Assembly: GCA_038741495.1 (NCBI GenBank)
Contig: JAVYKX010000002.1
Coordinates: 62,001 to 126,000 of the forward strand
From: Thermofilum sp.
GTDB taxonomy: Archaea; Thermoproteota; Thermoprotei; Thermofilales; Thermofilaceae
Direction: 5' to 3'
DNA length: 64,000 nt
A program made the translations under genes and the position numbers. The notes under the pieces are model-generated. The model saw only the letters and a program-made list of their open reading frames with translations, ran no database searches and had not been told where the DNA came from. Positions 25,385-56,280 of this stretch are shown one piece after another (within the stretch, counting starts at the first letter, position 1; each line of letters starts with the position of its first letter).

Positions 25385-25605
25385 CGCAACTCCCCAGAGC
25401 ACCTCGAAAGTTTCTCTACCCTATAAAGACGGTACAGCTCCCGGCTCCTTTCTCAATATTCCTCATCAAGCCCTACGACCTCCCTTCGGAAGGAGCTGCG
25501 ATTAAAGCTTAGCGGATCCTCAGAGGCTCAGGGCCTATGAGGGGGAATAGCACCTCGCGGAACAACCAGGCAGCGGCTACGCTTCGGTTAAAGTCGAGGA
25601 ATTGA

Positions 25606-25732
25606 TGGTGGGGCCGCCGGGATTTGAACCCGGGATTCGGCGGACGCGCTAGCGACGCGCCCTCCACCAGCGCCCCAGGCTGGCCTCAGGGGCTACCCTC
25701 AGCCAATCCTAGCCAAGCTAGACGACGGCCCC
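25606..25732 (-). tRNA. tRNA-Pro(GGG) with two non-canonical introns, CCA encoded
   Basis: Acceptor GGGGCCG/CGGCCCC, discriminator A and an encoded CCA, T-arm CCGGG-TTCAAAT-CCCGG, D-arm with TTGG. The anticodon arm is CCAGC-CTGGGGC-GCTGG with anticodon GGG (25674-25676), read as proline. The gene is about 49 bases too long. About 21 extra bases (within 25684-25705) lie between the D-arm and anticodon stem, and about 28 (within 25634-25666) lie in the variable region; both fold as small helices (AGGG/CCCT; GGGCGCG/CGCGTCC). No intron is at the canonical 37/38 site. A TATA-like TTAAAG lies about 32 bases upstream. Confidence 0.85.
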
Positions 25733-25832
25733 CGCGGATGCTGCTCTAGGCGCCCCTTTAATCCTTTCGCCGCCACCTCGCACCTGTACCTTCTCCTAGA
25801 GAGGTGAAACTTTCGAGCATGGAGAGAATCTA

Positions 25833-25848
25833 TATTACCTTGGTAATA
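25833..25848. promoter_or_regulatory. Palindromic operator next to the HTH gene's TATA box
   Basis: TATTACC-TT-GGTAATA is a perfect 7-base inverted repeat. It overlaps the TATA-like CTATATTA (25829-25836) and ends 13 bases before the GTG of the HTH gene, so it sits across the promoter and start site of a leaderless transcript. A dimeric HTH protein could bind it and block its own transcription. Confidence 0.55.
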
Positions 25849-25861
25849 CGGCAGCGGTTCT

Positions 25862-26494
25862 GTGCAGCAAGCTTTGGTACAGGAGGAAATACTGGCATCG
25901 CTCACAGAAACTGAGAGGAGGATCGTGGTAGCGTACCTAAAGCAGCGTGGTAAAGCTCGCGATCTCGCGCACGCGTTAGGCGTGTCCGAGCGGACGGTCT
26001 ACAAAGCTCTCTACAAGTACAGGAAGCTTGCTCGAGAGCGAGGAGTAGATCCCTCCGCATTCTACCTTAGGGGGAGCTTCGGCTACCAACCCGATAACGG
26101 ACGCGACGAGCTCCAGCGCCCGCTGCTGAATTTCGAAGGCATAAAGCAGGAGATTATTGCTGAGCTCGTACCCGTAATAGAGGAAGCTGTAAGGCAGGCT
26201 GTGAAACAGAGCCTAGAAGAGCTTCTCTCGGGCCAGCGCGGGCGGGCGGCAGCGGCGAGCCCCAGCGCCTCTAATCATTTAAAGAGCGACAGCGATCAAA
26301 TTGCCAGGCTCATACTAACTATTGAGAAGCTTAACGAGAATCTCGTCAAGTTTGGGCAAGCGATTACCAATCTCTACTCTACCGGTACGCCACGCGTACA
26401 GCAGCATAGCTGGCAGAACCGTGCCCACGAGGACTCTCTTCCCAGCTTCGTCGTAGGCAATCCTTGGCTCGAGGTGCTATCGCAGAGATACTAG
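25862..26494 (+). CDS. HTH protein with an arcadin-2-like C-terminal tail
   Basis: Residues 10-55 form a helix-turn-helix (LTETERRIVVAYLKQRGKAR, then ALGVSERTVYKALYKYRK) like sigma-4/Resolvase-type domains. A helical segment (about 95-125) and a Ser/Ala-rich linker follow, then a coiled-coil-like stretch (about 140-170), and finally the tail SLPSFVVGNPWLEVLSQRY at the very C-terminus. The tail matches the end of the arcadin-2 candidate at 39775-40410 (LPxF, NPW, S, R in register). The start is GTG, about 30 bases after the TATA box. I infer a DNA-binding protein that contacts the same partner as arcadin-2, perhaps crenactin. The family is otherwise unknown to me. Confidence 0.75.
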   Translation: MQQALVQEEILASLTETERRIVVAYLKQRGKARDLAHALGVSERTVYKALYKYRKLARERGVDPSAFYLRGSFGYQPDNGRDELQRPLLNFEGIKQEIIAELVPVIEEAVRQAVKQSLEELLSGQRGRAAAASPSASNHLKSDSDQIARLILTIEKLNENLVKFGQAITNLYSTGTPRVQQHSWQNRAHEDSLPSFVVGNPWLEVLSQRY

Positions 26495-37183: not shown

Positions 37184-39577
37184 TCAGGGCGCCTGGCCTG
37201 CGGAAGAGACGAGCTCCATCGTTCTCACCACACGCGCCTCTGGGAGAGCTTCTGCCAGTCTCTCAGCCTGAGTAGTTATTACGACTTGGTCGACGCCGGC
37301 GGTTTTGAAGATATTCTGCATGTAGGTGAGCTTAACTCTCTCGTCTACGTTAGGTAGTGGTTCGTCTAGCAGCATGAAACCAACATTGTGAGGTAGAAGC
37401 TTGAAGATCGACGTCAATAAGGCTAAGATAACTACTGTTTTCTGCCCATCACTCAGCCGCGCAGTAAAGGGTGTCCACTCACCGCCGACTTTCACTGCAA
37501 CTTTGAAGGTGCTTCTCAGGCCTCGAACCTCCTCGACTTCTAGCTTCACCTCCTCAATATCCGAGTAAGGGTATATCGACTTCAGGAGAAGATTCATGGT
37601 GTCGCTTATTTTCCTTACTCTCTCCTCGCGGAGGTCGGCCAGCGCCCTCAGCATAGCCTTCCGAACCGCTAAGAGATTCTTCCGGAGGTTTTCAACCCTC
37701 TTGAGATTCTCGCTTAGCTCGCGGTACTCGCGCTCAGCTTCCTCAAGCTGCTGCTTTAGCGGCATGCTCTCCAGCGCTTCGATCTTGGCTTCGATACCTC
37801 TCAACTGTTCCCTCAGATCCCTGAACTGCCTCTCCAGCTCATCATACCTGCGCTTCTGCGGAAGCAGCTGCTCGAGCTGCAGCCGCTTGTCCTCTAGTGT
37901 CTTCTCGAGGCTCTCGATCTCCCTTGCGGCGTCAAGCTTCTCGACACCTTCTCGCAGTTGAAGAAGCAGGTTGCCAGCCCTGCTCAACTGAAATTCGATG
38001 GCTTTGTACTCTTGTCTAGCTCTCTCAAGCTCTTCTCTGACTTCCTCGCACTCCTTACTCAACTTCTCCCTCAAGCTCTCGAGCTCCTCGTACCTGCTGA
38101 CAGGCTCCTCCAGCTCGATAAGCCTAGCCTTGATCTCCTGCAGCTCCGATAAGACTCTCTTCAATCGCTGGATCTTCTCCTCCTTAGATCTCAGCTCGGA
38201 CTCCTGCTCTGCAGCAGATTCCCTGATCCGCGGCTCAAGCTTCTCTACCGAGCTTTTATCGAGCTCGCTGCCACAGACAGGGCACCGGGTTTCGCCTCTA
38301 AGTCTAAGTTCCTCCACAATTCGTCTCCGCAGGATACCGGCGGCTCTGCCCTCGAGTACTAATTCCTTAAGCCTCTCGTACTCTCTCTCGAGCTTTGAAA
38401 TCTCGGAGCGCAGCTTGTCTTCGGACCCTACCTCCGAAAGAATTCTCTCACGCCGCTCGCTCAGGTCCTCAAACTCCCGAACCTGTACCTCGAGGTTCAC
38501 CAGCATCTCTTCGACTTGCTTTAACCTGAGCTCACACTCGTTTACCTCGACAGCCTTCCCGGCCTCCACCTCTCTTAGCCCTCTATCAAACTCGTCGACT
38601 ATCGCGCTGTGAGCCTCCTTTAGCGCCTCGTAGACCCGCTTCAGGTTCATGCTCGCTGGATCAACTTTCTCAAGCTTCTCCTTAACGGAGGCAGGCACAG
38701 GAAGAAGCTCAGCAGCCCTCAGGAGCCTGTGCTTTAAATCATCGGCTAGAGACGCGAGTGTGTACTCGTCGAAACCCCCCTTCCCAATCTTTTGCTTCAA
38801 CTTCTGGAGTATCTGCGAAACCTCAGCGATTGATGCCTGAAGCTTTTCAAACTCATTCTTAGCACCCTCAAGTTTTTCCAACTCAACCTTTATCGCTGAC
38901 AGCTTGCCGAGCAGCTCATCACGTTGAGATCTAAGCCTGGCGAGTTCCTTGGACGTGGACTCGTACTGCAGCTCCAGCTTGCGCAAGTTCTCTTCAGCTG
39001 CGGAAAGCAAGCCTCTCAACTTTTCCAGCTCGGACTCCACCCGCCTTACTGGAATGCTTTTCACGAGCCCTGCCACGGAGTCTAGACCCAGCAAGCGATC
39101 GAGGACCCTGCTCCTGGCTTCAGGTGTTCCGTAGGCGAGTAGAAGAAGGGTGGCGAAACTTAGGTGCACAGTCCGGTAGAACTCCTCGAAATCTAACCCC
39201 AGTAAACTCTCCACGTACTCCCTGACCGCACCGCTACCTCTAACTACCCGCCCGTCGGGCAGAACCAGTTTCGCGTACTCCTTATGCTCCCTGGAGATCT
39301 CTCGCATTATGCTGAGAACGCTATCCCCGTGCTTCAGCACTACCTCTATGCGCGCTTTATCTCTTCTCGCATTGATAAGATCGCTCTTAGCGTAAAATCT
39401 TCTCCGCAGCCCCGGCTCCATCCCGTAAAGCGCGTAGGACACCGCGGAGAGAAGGCTGCTCTTACCCGAGCCTACGGGTCCAGCTATTACAGTTAACCCC
39501 TGGTCTAGCTCGAGTGAAACTTTCTGGGCGAAGTACCTGAATCCCTCAATCTCCACCCTCTTCAGCAGCACCGGCAC
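37184..39577 (-). CDS. Arcadin-4 candidate: Rad50/SMC-like ATPase
   Basis: A 797-residue Rad50-like protein: Walker A AGPVGSGKSSLLSAVSYALY (33-40), long coiled coils (about 175-430 and 445-700), a zinc hook CPVC (C432, C435) in the middle, then signature LSDGQKTVVILALL and Walker B FMLLDEPLPNVD. It is not next to mre11. Its place after an arcadin-2/arcadin-3-type pair and crenactin matches the arcadin cluster of Pyrobaculum, where arcadin-4 is an SMC-like protein. The signature LSDGQ departs from LSGG(Q/E). It overlaps the small gene upstream by 32 bases. A Rad50 role in repair is the alternative. Confidence 0.85.
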   Translation of the reverse strand: MPVLLKRVEIEGFRYFAQKVSLELDQGLTVIAGPVGSGKSSLLSAVSYALYGMEPGLRRRFYAKSDLINARRDKARIEVVLKHGDSVLSIMREISREHKEYAKLVLPDGRVVRGSGAVREYVESLLGLDFEEFYRTVHLSFATLLLLAYGTPEARSRVLDRLLGLDSVAGLVKSIPVRRVESELEKLRGLLSAAEENLRKLELQYESTSKELARLRSQRDELLGKLSAIKVELEKLEGAKNEFEKLQASIAEVSQILQKLKQKIGKGGFDEYTLASLADDLKHRLLRAAELLPVPASVKEKLEKVDPASMNLKRVYEALKEAHSAIVDEFDRGLREVEAGKAVEVNECELRLKQVEEMLVNLEVQVREFEDLSERRERILSEVGSEDKLRSEISKLEREYERLKELVLEGRAAGILRRRIVEELRLRGETRCPVCGSELDKSSVEKLEPRIRESAAEQESELRSKEEKIQRLKRVLSELQEIKARLIELEEPVSRYEELESLREKLSKECEEVREELERARQEYKAIEFQLSRAGNLLLQLREGVEKLDAAREIESLEKTLEDKRLQLEQLLPQKRRYDELERQFRDLREQLRGIEAKIEALESMPLKQQLEEAEREYRELSENLKRVENLRKNLLAVRKAMLRALADLREERVRKISDTMNLLLKSIYPYSDIEEVKLEVEEVRGLRSTFKVAVKVGGEWTPFTARLSDGQKTVVILALLTSIFKLLPHNVGFMLLDEPLPNVDERVKLTYMQNIFKTAGVDQVVITTQAERLAEALPEARVVRTMELVSSAGQAP

Positions 39578-39774: not shown

Positions 39775-40410
39775 CTACTTGCTATCCACTCCCCGCTTGC
39801 TGAAGATCATAAACCATGGATTGTTGCGCGCAAACTCGGGCAAATCATCAGGTATGCTTGAAGCGCTGGGGGGTGTGGAAACCTGAGAAGCCGATTCTCC
39901 CGCTCGCTCACTGCTGAACTGGATCCGCTGCCCTTGCGGGAGGGCAGCCGAAGCGTCAGGAACGCTACGCTGAGGGGCTTGCTCGTGTTCGCGTAGGCCG
40001 GTGGGTCTTGAGAGGCCGGCTCCCGGTGGCTCGCCCCGCCTAAGTGGAGCGGGTAGAACCTCCTCAACAGCCCCTTCGTCGCCGACTCTTAGGAGCCCAA
40101 CCTTGTGGTACCCTTCAAGAACATCGCGAAGCATAGTCATCCTCTTGCCTGCGATTCTTCTCAGGAAGTTTGATGGCACCGCGATGTATACGCGGTCGAA
40201 CGAGAGGGGACGGCATCCCGCTGATGCTTCCCACACAGCTTCGAGAACCCCGCTGGACGAAGCTGGGAGAACAATCCTGACAGCGATCGATTCGCTATTT
40301 GAGTAGCATACTAAAGTTTGGTCTTCAAGCTCCTCGACTCTGCAACCTCTGCTTTCGAGGTAGCTTTTGACCGCGGCAAGCACCCTGTACCTCGACAGTA
40401 CGCGCGCCAT
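39775..40410 (-). CDS. Arcadin-2 candidate with crenactin-binding tail
   Basis: A folded N-terminal domain (about residues 1-120), a long Pro/Ser/Gln-rich linker (about 121-185), and a C-terminal motif DLPEFARNNPWFMIFSKR. In Pyrobaculum, arcadin-2 regulates crenactin filaments through a C-terminal peptide that binds crenactin's hydrophobic groove; the layout here fits. The gene is next to crenactin and has its own TATA-like TAATTAAG about 30 bases upstream, so arcadins 2-3-4 may be a separate transcript from crenactin. Confidence 0.75.
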   Translation of the reverse strand: MARVLSRYRVLAAVKSYLESRGCRVEELEDQTLVCYSNSESIAVRIVLPASSSGVLEAVWEASAGCRPLSFDRVYIAVPSNFLRRIAGKRMTMLRDVLEGYHKVGLLRVGDEGAVEEVLPAPLRRGEPPGAGLSRPTGLREHEQAPQRSVPDASAALPQGQRIQFSSERAGESASQVSTPPSASSIPDDLPEFARNNPWFMIFSKRGVDSK

Positions 40411-40462: not shown

Positions 40463-41743
40463 TTAATAGTGGACTCCTCTCTTGTACCAGCCTTCCATCC
40501 GGCCCCAGTTCCACTCAATCGTATCAGGTACAGCCAGGCTATACACAATGCCCCCTTTCCAAACCGAGTAGAGAGGATCTGATACAAGTTTCACAGTGTA
40601 GTCCAGCCCCTTCTGCCTCAGCTGTAGGGCAACTTTCTCCGCAGAGTTCACAGCTACGTCCTCTAAACCCTGCGGGACCTTCCACGCGAAGTTACCGCCG
40701 CTGAGTATAGCCACTCTTATCTGCTGCTGAGCCTCGAAGCTTGTCCTGCCGATTGAGTATCTTATCGCGTCGATGAGCGGAAGAGTGCCCGGAAGCCTCT
40801 GGTCCCCCACCACAGTGTCTCTAGGCCTCGGCATGCCTCGCTTGTAGTAACTCTCGTAGATCTCGTGATTAGGGTCGAAGATTATCTCCCCTATGAGGAA
40901 GCGCATCCACGAGTTTGAACCCATATCTATCTCAATCGTAGTTCGCGGGACTTTGAACACCACGCGGAAACGCTCCGGCTCTTTTTTAGCCTTCTCGATA
41001 GCGAGGTCAAGGTCCCTCGGCACGAGACCCACGCTCTCCTTGAACATTCTTACGAACTTCTCCTCCCTGGCCCGGTCTTCGTAGCCGAGGTCCCGTAAAA
41101 TCTCCGCGGCGATAGCGTCGGCCTCGGCTCCTCCCCGGTTAAGCACCGTTATTGCGTCGCGCACCGGGTAAACGACGATAGGTGTAACCTGAGTGTTGCC
41201 GTGGCCAGATTCCACCACGATACACTCCGTGATCTTCTCAGCAATCGCCACGGCGAGCGGCTGGGGGATTATCGTCACTGCCTTGACGTAGCGGCCTTCC
41301 TTGTCAAGCTCCGCGTGAATGTCGAACAACCGCTCATACATGTGCCTCGGAGCTATAGCTGAGAGGGCAGCTGTAACGTAAAAGCCATCGAAGTCCTGAG
41401 CCTTCTTCATCTCCTTCAAACTCTTCTCGAAACCGTACCTCGTTATCTCCTTGATGACAGCCCAGGCCCGCTCGTTACCTCTCTCCACGAGACCATCATG
41501 CATCGGGTATATGAGAGCGCGACCCATTGTGTCCACAGCGGGCAGGTACCGGGAAACCTCCTCTCCCACAACGATGGGTTTAGAAACTCCGAAAAGCTCT
41601 AGCAGAACCTTCGACTCGAGCTCCGACGTGATAACACCTCTATTCTCTATGACGTAAGGTCTCTCCGCAACGGGACCGAACTTAAAGTGGCTTGTACCGT
41701 AATCTTCCGCGTACGCGTACTTCCTCCTATACTCGTCGATCAC
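40463..41743 (-). CDS. Crenactin, archaeal actin
   Basis: A 426-residue actin-fold ATPase that forms double-helical filaments in Thermoproteales. Phosphate loop 1 is EDYGTSHFKFGP (D14-T17), phosphate loop 2 is VVESGHGNTQVTP (about 177-189), and the adenosine motif is VAILSGGNFAW near residue 350. The ends MIDEYRRKYAYAEDYG and WNWGRMEGWYKRG match this group. The start is GTG. It heads the arcadin neighbourhood and is divergent from the 41813-42235 gene. Confidence 0.93.
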   Translation of the reverse strand: MIDEYRRKYAYAEDYGTSHFKFGPVAERPYVIENRGVITSELESKVLLELFGVSKPIVVGEEVSRYLPAVDTMGRALIYPMHDGLVERGNERAWAVIKEITRYGFEKSLKEMKKAQDFDGFYVTAALSAIAPRHMYERLFDIHAELDKEGRYVKAVTIIPQPLAVAIAEKITECIVVESGHGNTQVTPIVVYPVRDAITVLNRGGAEADAIAAEILRDLGYEDRAREEKFVRMFKESVGLVPRDLDLAIEKAKKEPERFRVVFKVPRTTIEIDMGSNSWMRFLIGEIIFDPNHEIYESYYKRGMPRPRDTVVGDQRLPGTLPLIDAIRYSIGRTSFEAQQQIRVAILSGGNFAWKVPQGLEDVAVNSAEKVALQLRQKGLDYTVKLVSDPLYSVWKGGIVYSLAVPDTIEWNWGRMEGWYKRGVHY

Positions 41744-55584: not shown

Positions 55585-56280
55585 TTGAAAGTAGTGTGCT
55601 TGGTCAGCGGTAGCAAGGGGGGTACGGGTAAGAGTGTTCTATCGGCTGCGCTGTCTTATACGCTGGCGCAGCGCTTTGGCCCAACGCTTCTCGTAGACCT
55701 TGGCGGCGGCGACAGCAGCTTGATTGCGCTCGGAGCTGTCCCCGCTCAGCCTAGCTTGGACGACGTCCTTAAAGGGAAAGCTGATCCACAGAGCCTTTTC
55801 CGCGAAAGCAACCTTACCTCCGGGCTCCTCGTAGCGCCGAGCCGCAGCCCGCTGACCGACGGTTTTCACCCCGAGAAGCTCGAGGAGGTTCTGCGGGTGG
55901 CGAAGACGAAGGCGGATTACGTGGTCCTGGATTTCCCCGCTTACACGCACGGACCTCTCGACTACCTGCTGGAGCGAGCCGACGACATCCTCATGGTCGC
56001 GACACCTACCCGCTTGGCGCTTGAGCGCCTGAGAAGCTGGATGGAAACTAGAGCTGCAAGCCTCGACACCGCGAAGCTGACGGGGATCCTCAACATGTAC
56101 GTCACCACGATGGGAAGCTGGAAGAGAGCCCTGCTGAGCATGGTTGAGAAAGCAGAAGTCGTTTACTTCGACGTGGCGCTATGGTTCACGCACACGCGCA
56201 ACATCGCCGAAGCTATGATCTGCTGCGAGAAACCCACCCGGGAGAAAGTGACGGAACTCGCAGCGAAGCTGAGCAGCTAG
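55585..56280 (+). CDS. ParA/MinD-family ATPase
   Basis: A 231-residue deviant Walker A ATPase: SGSKGGTGKSVLSAALSYTL (residues 8-17 form the P-loop with the signature Lys), LLVDLGGGDSSLIALG, VVLDFPAYTHG and a later VATPTRLALERL. Such ATPases place DNA, chromosomes or secretion machines at membranes. It starts (TTG) 25 bases from the frame end of the divergent pilin-like gene. It is followed one base later by the helicase gene, so the two are co-transcribed. Confidence 0.85.
   Translation: MKVVCLVSGSKGGTGKSVLSAALSYTLAQRFGPTLLVDLGGGDSSLIALGAVPAQPSLDDVLKGKADPQSLFRESNLTSGLLVAPSRSPLTDGFHPEKLEEVLRVAKTKADYVVLDFPAYTHGPLDYLLERADDILMVATPTRLALERLRSWMETRAASLDTAKLTGILNMYVTTMGSWKRALLSMVEKAEVVYFDVALWFTHTRNIAEAMICCEKPTREKVTELAAKLSS

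Follow-up and report, generated by a model that had tools for sequence, protein, structure and literature searches.

The window, that is, the whole stretch of 64,000 nucleotides of Thermofilum sp. DNA that was analyzed, holds a gene for an HTH protein and a crenactin locus (Table 1). The HTH gene lies outside the arcade cluster, 14 kb from crenactin, and no conserved neighbors were found for it in a gene-neighborhood comparison. ARAGORN and Rfam were silent on the tRNA-like sequence that precedes it. At the other locus, the crenactin scored 611 bits against the NCBIfam crenactin model, slightly below the cut-off of 630 bits. The gene directly after it, an arcadin-2 candidate in the first-pass annotation, is arcadin-2: it adjoins crenactin, and its core is homologous to the Pyrobaculum arcadin-2 family (hhalign, 98.6%, E value = 5 × 10−16). 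The Rad50/SMC-like ATPase gene that follows on the same strand putatively stands, by sequence and position, in place of arcadin-4, which has been described as SMC-like (PMC11946384). A ParA/MinD-like ATPase, possibly a segregation gene, is encoded about 14 kb from crenactin and is followed by a DinG/XPD-like helicase.

Table 1. Coordinates of the features in the window and of one further tail protein of the same genome
Feature	Position	Strand	Remarks
tRNA-like sequence, apparently intron-interrupted	25608-25735	-	just upstream of the HTH gene
Candidate upstream element GAAACTTTC (GAAASTTTC)	25806..25814		another GAAASTTTC at 25406-25414
Palindrome ATTACCTTGGTAAT	25834-25847		upstream of the HTH gene; single occurrence in the window
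HTH protein with crenactin-type tail	25862..26494	+	210 aa, GTG start
HTH DNA-binding domain, sigma-70 region 4/GerE type	25898..26038	+	residues 13-59
Two long helices, predicted coiled coil/oligomerization region	26132..26386	+	residues 91-131 and 140-175; AF2 model
Disordered linker	26387..26434	+	residues ~176-191; poorly conserved
C-terminal tail LPSFVVGNPWLEVLSQR, predicted crenactin-groove binder	26438..26488	+	residues 193-209
Rad50/SMC-like ATPase, arcadin-4 position	37184..39577	-	after arcadin-2; putative, from sequence and position
Arcadin-2	39775..40410	-	core homology to Pyrobaculum arcadin-2; directly after crenactin
Arcadin-2 tail LPEFARNNPWFMIFSKR	39793-39843	-	within the arcadin-2 gene
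Crenactin	40463..41743	-	PDB 4cj7/5ly3 match, E value = 1.6 × 10−106
ParA/MinD-like ATPase	55585-56280	+	
Third tail protein, own genome, outside the window	G000:C2:490530 / 490503-490688 (L003, L146)		137-codon ORF, ends ELPSFVAGNPWFSILAQRGRSRVGL

The AF2 model of the HTH protein runs from an HTH domain (pLDDT 92 to 98) through a coil and a disordered linker to a C-terminal helix. The Pfam families HTH_23 and Sigma70_r4_2 matched the HTH domain below their cut-offs, the window member falling just under the cut-off and the domains of its orthologs scoring above the gathering score; Foldseek aligned the domain with sigma region 4 domains at 1.4 to 2.6 Å rmsd over 53 to 64 columns, with E values that were not significant. 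The ortholog Pfam scores and the matching PDB folds identify it as a four-helix HTH of the sigma-70 region 4/GerE type, the same N-terminal fold as in the regulators of that name, and no known member of that group with a crenactin-type tail turned up in our searches. In the coil, residues 146 to 170 are moderately conserved. The low-complexity linker that had been reported before the tail proved to be in part this coiled coil, although a short disordered stretch is present (pLDDT below 50 at residues 178 to 186). The terminal helix, residues 201 to 209, follows the unstructured linker, an arrangement that matches the anatomy of arcadin-2 (PMC5173319).

Next, we looked into how the tail of the HTH protein relates to that of arcadin-2. 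The arcadin-2 of the P. calidifontis arcade cluster ends in a tail of 17 to 20 residues, N-x-W-[VLI]-x-[VIL]-[LI], which is a helix after an unstructured linker (PMC5173319), and the HTH protein carries this motif at its extreme C terminus. Its end, ...HEDSLPSFVVGNPWLEVLSQRY (also given as SLPSFVVGNPWLEVLSQRY), and that of the window's arcadin-2, ...DDLPEFARNNPWFMIFSKRGVDSK (also given as DLPEFARNNPWFMIFSKRGVDSK), formed the sole pair in register anywhere in the window, as the first-pass annotation had seen. A PWM was built solely from the arcadin-2 tails of archaea in other classes (22 sequences, the HTH protein not being among them); run over the 68,326 six-frame 17-mers of the window, it ranked the HTH tail first (35.2 bits) and the window's own arcadin-2 tail second (29.1 bits), the next, background score being 12.3 bits. 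When the profiles of the two families were aligned, only the last 26 columns matched (98.1% probability, E value = 7 × 10−14). Unlike arcadin-2, the HTH protein thus lacks the conserved N-terminal core domain, in place of which stand an HTH and a coiled coil; its gene is unlinked to crenactin.

What the tail does in arcadin-2 is known from P. calidifontis, where residues 187 to 203 were crystallized in the crenactin groove at 1.6 Å, the peptide depolymerizes filaments and arcadin-2 binds crenactin with a Kd of 31 nM (PMC5173319), in line with the earlier claim that it binds through its C-terminal peptide. In genome G063, the crenactin is identical to that of PDB 4cj7/5ly3 over 431 residues, and the arcadin-2 beside it has 203 amino acids, of which residues 187 to 203 are RGGIGENEWVKILRSKR. 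Since this peptide fits the R187-R203 limits of the published one (PMC5173319), the tail is the proven crenactin-binding peptide. The core in common with the crystallized peptide is NEWVKILRSK; the P. calidifontis HTH ortholog, identified via G063, ends in NVWISIIRNK (tail RRNVWISIIRNKAT, also given as HMPEPLRRNVWISIIRNKAT), and ...EPLRRNVWISIIRNKAT is a candidate crenactin-binding peptide of the HTH type. Most lineages have the NPW form of the tail, and Pyrobaculum/Thermoproteus-type genomes have N-E/Q-W. Judged by its sequence, the tail of the HTH protein is the same tail as the structure-proven peptide of arcadin-2. As so short a motif might coincide in just two sequences, we also considered whether short hydrophobic C termini had converged by chance or through their composition. 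Such an origin is extremely improbable in view of the PWM rank, the profile E value, the conservation of the tail across the class despite different codons and the control counts: the pattern P..F...NPW had three matches in the 1.62-Mb genome, all at protein C termini, and none in the reversed control, and the control counts over 397 genomes gave two. On the PWM, these controls and the phylum counts below, we rejected a chance match.

The HTH protein is itself widespread. Relatives were found in 23 of the 27 genomes of the order, and the family profile matched 76 of the 81 genomes of the class, part of these matches spanning the tail region only; the five genomes without a match coincide with families f8 and f9, where crenactin is missing as well. 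Named members came from Thermofilum, Vulcanisaeta, Caldivirga, Thermocladium, Thermoproteus and, through G063, P. calidifontis. Mean conservation across the family was 2.95 bits per column in the HTH domain and 2.92 in the tail, compared with 1.8 in the coil and 0.8 to 1.0 in the other segments, so the HTH domain and the tail are its two conserved parts. Invariant positions are T17, E18, T45, V46, Y47, K48 and A49 in the HTH domain and, in the 34 HTH-family sequences, P194, N200 and W202. The proline of NPW is replaced by valine or alanine in the HTH tails of several genera. In Caldivirga-type genomes, the arcadin-2 tail reads NPW and the HTH tail NVW, a mix that lends no support to strict co-drift of the two tails.

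The first-pass annotation was right that this HTH protein bears the arcadin-2 tail, but it is not a single case, as many unrelated proteins carry it. The three tail proteins of the genome itself, with no further match, are arcadin-2, the HTH protein and a small winged-HTH-like protein, whose winged-helix match is weak (E value = 0.0022) and which has relatives in most genomes of the genus. Among the carriers elsewhere, a C2H2 zinc finger with a coiled coil was detected above the Pfam cut-off in three (L027, L099 and L119), and five more are of the C2H2 type (L046, L108, L112, L114 and, in Wolframiiraptor, outside the class, L282). An RHH domain was found above the cut-off in L240 (RHH_1) and weakly in L029 and L104; weak matches also link four carriers to small winged-HTH-like proteins (L003, which is the one of the genome itself, L056, L111 and L116) and one to AbrB/MazE (L095). 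Other HTH carriers, with N-E/Q-W tails, occur in Thermoproteus/Pyrobaculum-type genomes (L164/L247 and L246). No recognized DNA-binding domain was present in L041-43, L057, L107, L120 and L293. An Alba-like reading of L057 was dropped because Pfam support was absent or weak, and for the same reason an AbrB/RHH reading of L093, L096, L124, L241 and L243 leaves these unassigned or at best probable. No viral or plasmid tail carriers were found in these searches. The carriers are thus unrelated to each other, with independent fusions of the tail, and are mostly recognizable or probable DNA binders.

We then asked how the tail and crenactin are distributed relative to each other across the phylum, using a stricter tail pattern and 397 genomes, with the four cell counts tallied by hand from two tables. 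The pattern was present in 92 of the 112 crenactin-positive genomes and in 10 of the 285 crenactin-negative ones (Fisher test, P value ~7 × 10−58, which overstates the evidence because related genomes are not independent); of 170 genera, 49 had the pattern and 46 had crenactin. A tail widespread in organisms without crenactin, which the first-pass annotation had named as counting against its proposal, was thus not what we observed. Family f14, of the Pyrobaculum/Thermoproteus type, accounts for 15 of the 20 crenactin-positive misses, and the arcadin-2 tails read among its genomes have the drifted N-E/Q-W form. Two of the crenactin-negative genomes with a match (G018 and G010) are fragmented drafts (90% and 84% complete) and have the tail on their HTH proteins; the match in G122 (L260) had no C-terminal tail on inspection. 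The 98% complete G264, with no crenactin detected, is a real exception to the co-occurrence: it encodes an 86-amino-acid protein of coil and tail (L293) that ends in LPDFVTGNPWISVIRGRG. Two genomes of family f18 (G159 and G214) have crenactin, whereas the other listed members are without it, and no arcadin-2-type tail was found in these two. In a scan of 84,980 species, relatives were confirmed solely in Thermoproteota-type, Aigarchaeota-type and Nitrososphaerales/Thaumarchaeota-labeled records.

The exception in G264 bears on a reading in which the tail generally serves to dock another partner, such as a further cytoskeletal or membrane protein of the same lineages, with crenactin, as used by arcadin-2, only one of several ligands. 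The tolerance of valine or alanine for proline in HTH tails, where the arcadin-2 of the same genomes retains proline, would suit this reading as well. Nevertheless, the strong co-occurrence with crenactin, the loss of both tail and crenactin in f8 and f9 and the crystallized peptide in the crenactin groove argue against it, and we regard it as unlikely.

From sequence, model and analogy, the HTH protein is probably a DNA-bound crenactin adaptor whose tail docks in the crenactin groove, with a logic like that of ParR. Its sigma-region-4-like N-terminal HTH would bind DNA, its coiled coil would oligomerize it, and its flexible linker would present a C-terminal amphipathic helix bearing N-P-W-[LVI]-x-[VI]-L. 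This helix would insert into the hydrophobic groove of crenactin between subdomains IA and IIA, the pocket that arcadin-2 and the D-loop of the neighboring subunit occupy. Given the competition between the arcadin-2 peptide and the D-loop, any adaptor with such a tail should bind monomers or a filament end with an exposed groove; the HTH protein would thereby couple specific DNA sites to either of these, as ParR does with ParM. For the tail carriers in general, we infer groove binding, DNA sites and a tethering role. Counting against the adaptor reading are the position of the HTH gene outside the arcade cluster with no conserved neighbors, the failure to find a cluster of operator sites, the loose covariation of the arcadin-2 and HTH tails, the tail protein of G264 and the carriers in which no DNA-binding domain is recognized.

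ParR, of the plasmid partition system ParMRC, has a ribbon-helix-helix fold, and its gene sits next to that of ParM and close to a centromere. The analogy with ParMRC lies in the pairing of a DNA-binding domain with a C-terminal peptide that would sit in the groove of an actin-like protein, and both parts appear to be present in the HTH protein by sequence and model; the ParM:ParR comparison has already been drawn for arcadin-2 (PMC5173319). We claim no homology. Unlike ParR, the HTH protein has an HTH fold (among the carriers, the RHH domain is in L240), and its gene is chromosomal and unlinked, 14 kb from crenactin. Most of the family's HTH genes have a GAAA[CG]TTTC-like element about 42 to 58 bp upstream, and the window has four copies of GAAASTTTC against 0.66 expected; genome-wide, there were 26 compared with 23 in the control. 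We therefore dropped it as evidence of a ParR-like operator cluster, and neither the window nor the genome count revealed a repeated cluster of operator sites or a centromere for the HTH protein.

The same observations bear on the main rival, in which the tail carriers are transcription factors that sense crenactin monomers: the tail would bind free crenactin, which would alter their DNA binding so that gene expression would track the unpolymerized crenactin pool, and the filament would need no mechanical connection to them. In animals, G-actin acts on gene expression through the RPEL motifs of MRTF. An HTH of the GerE/sigma-region-4 type is usual in transcription regulators, many different DNA-binding folds bear the tail, and the HTH gene itself has a candidate operator upstream; furthermore, the arcadin-2 peptide renders crenactin monomeric (PMC5173319), so that a similar tail could prefer monomers. 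The upstream element, however, is not enriched genome-wide, no regulon or operator is established, and long coiled coils would fit a clustering function just as they fit a regulatory one. We consider sensing of this type possible though rather doubtful; sequence favors neither it nor tethering.

Other DNA binders, with zinc-finger, RHH, other HTH and probable winged-HTH domains, have gained the tail too, so crenactin seems to be a hub of several DNA connections, which suggests that these hot-spring archaea wire the chromosome or gene control directly to an actin-type filament via a shared tail. A wider proposal, which we put forward tentatively as a serious possibility short of a probable one, is that Thermoprotei have a chromosome-cytoskeleton network with crenactin at its center, in which the conserved HTH protein and several independently recruited binders (zinc finger, RHH, winged HTH and AbrB-like) would tether chromosomal sites to crenactin ends by one peptide in common. 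If true, such a network would amount to a chromosomal ParMR-like system with multiple adaptors, serving to segregate or organize the chromosome in archaea that reportedly have no clear SMC homologs. Thermofilum adornatum juxtaposes its chromosome halves without a clear SMC homolog, having only arcadin-4 (PMC11946384), and both the function of crenactin in the cell and the modes of division and DNA segregation in Thermoproteales and Thermofilales are open questions (PMC10936438). The first-pass annotation knew of no described case, and the open literature that we searched likewise gave no DNA-binding crenactin partner and no DNA-binding protein with a crenactin-groove peptide (subscription papers and preprints lay outside the search). 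Such proteins provide candidate links from chromosome to filament that can be named and tested, and one of them is in P. calidifontis, the species of the solved crenactin and arcadin-2 peptide.

The tail would also represent an archaeal actin peptide module that is reused in unrelated proteins, by analogy with the WH2, thymosin beta-4 and RPEL peptides of eukaryotic actin, short peptides that recur in unrelated proteins for the same groove. The tail has no sequence relation to any of these, and the arcadin-2 peptide and thymosin beta-4 lie in opposite orientations (PMC5173319). In one Thermofilum-type genome (G022), the arcadin-2 (L063:706-1464, minus strand) has tandem tails, DLPSFARDNPWLRILSS ... 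ELPSFARDNPWLDFLSRR, which resemble tandem WH2 motifs.
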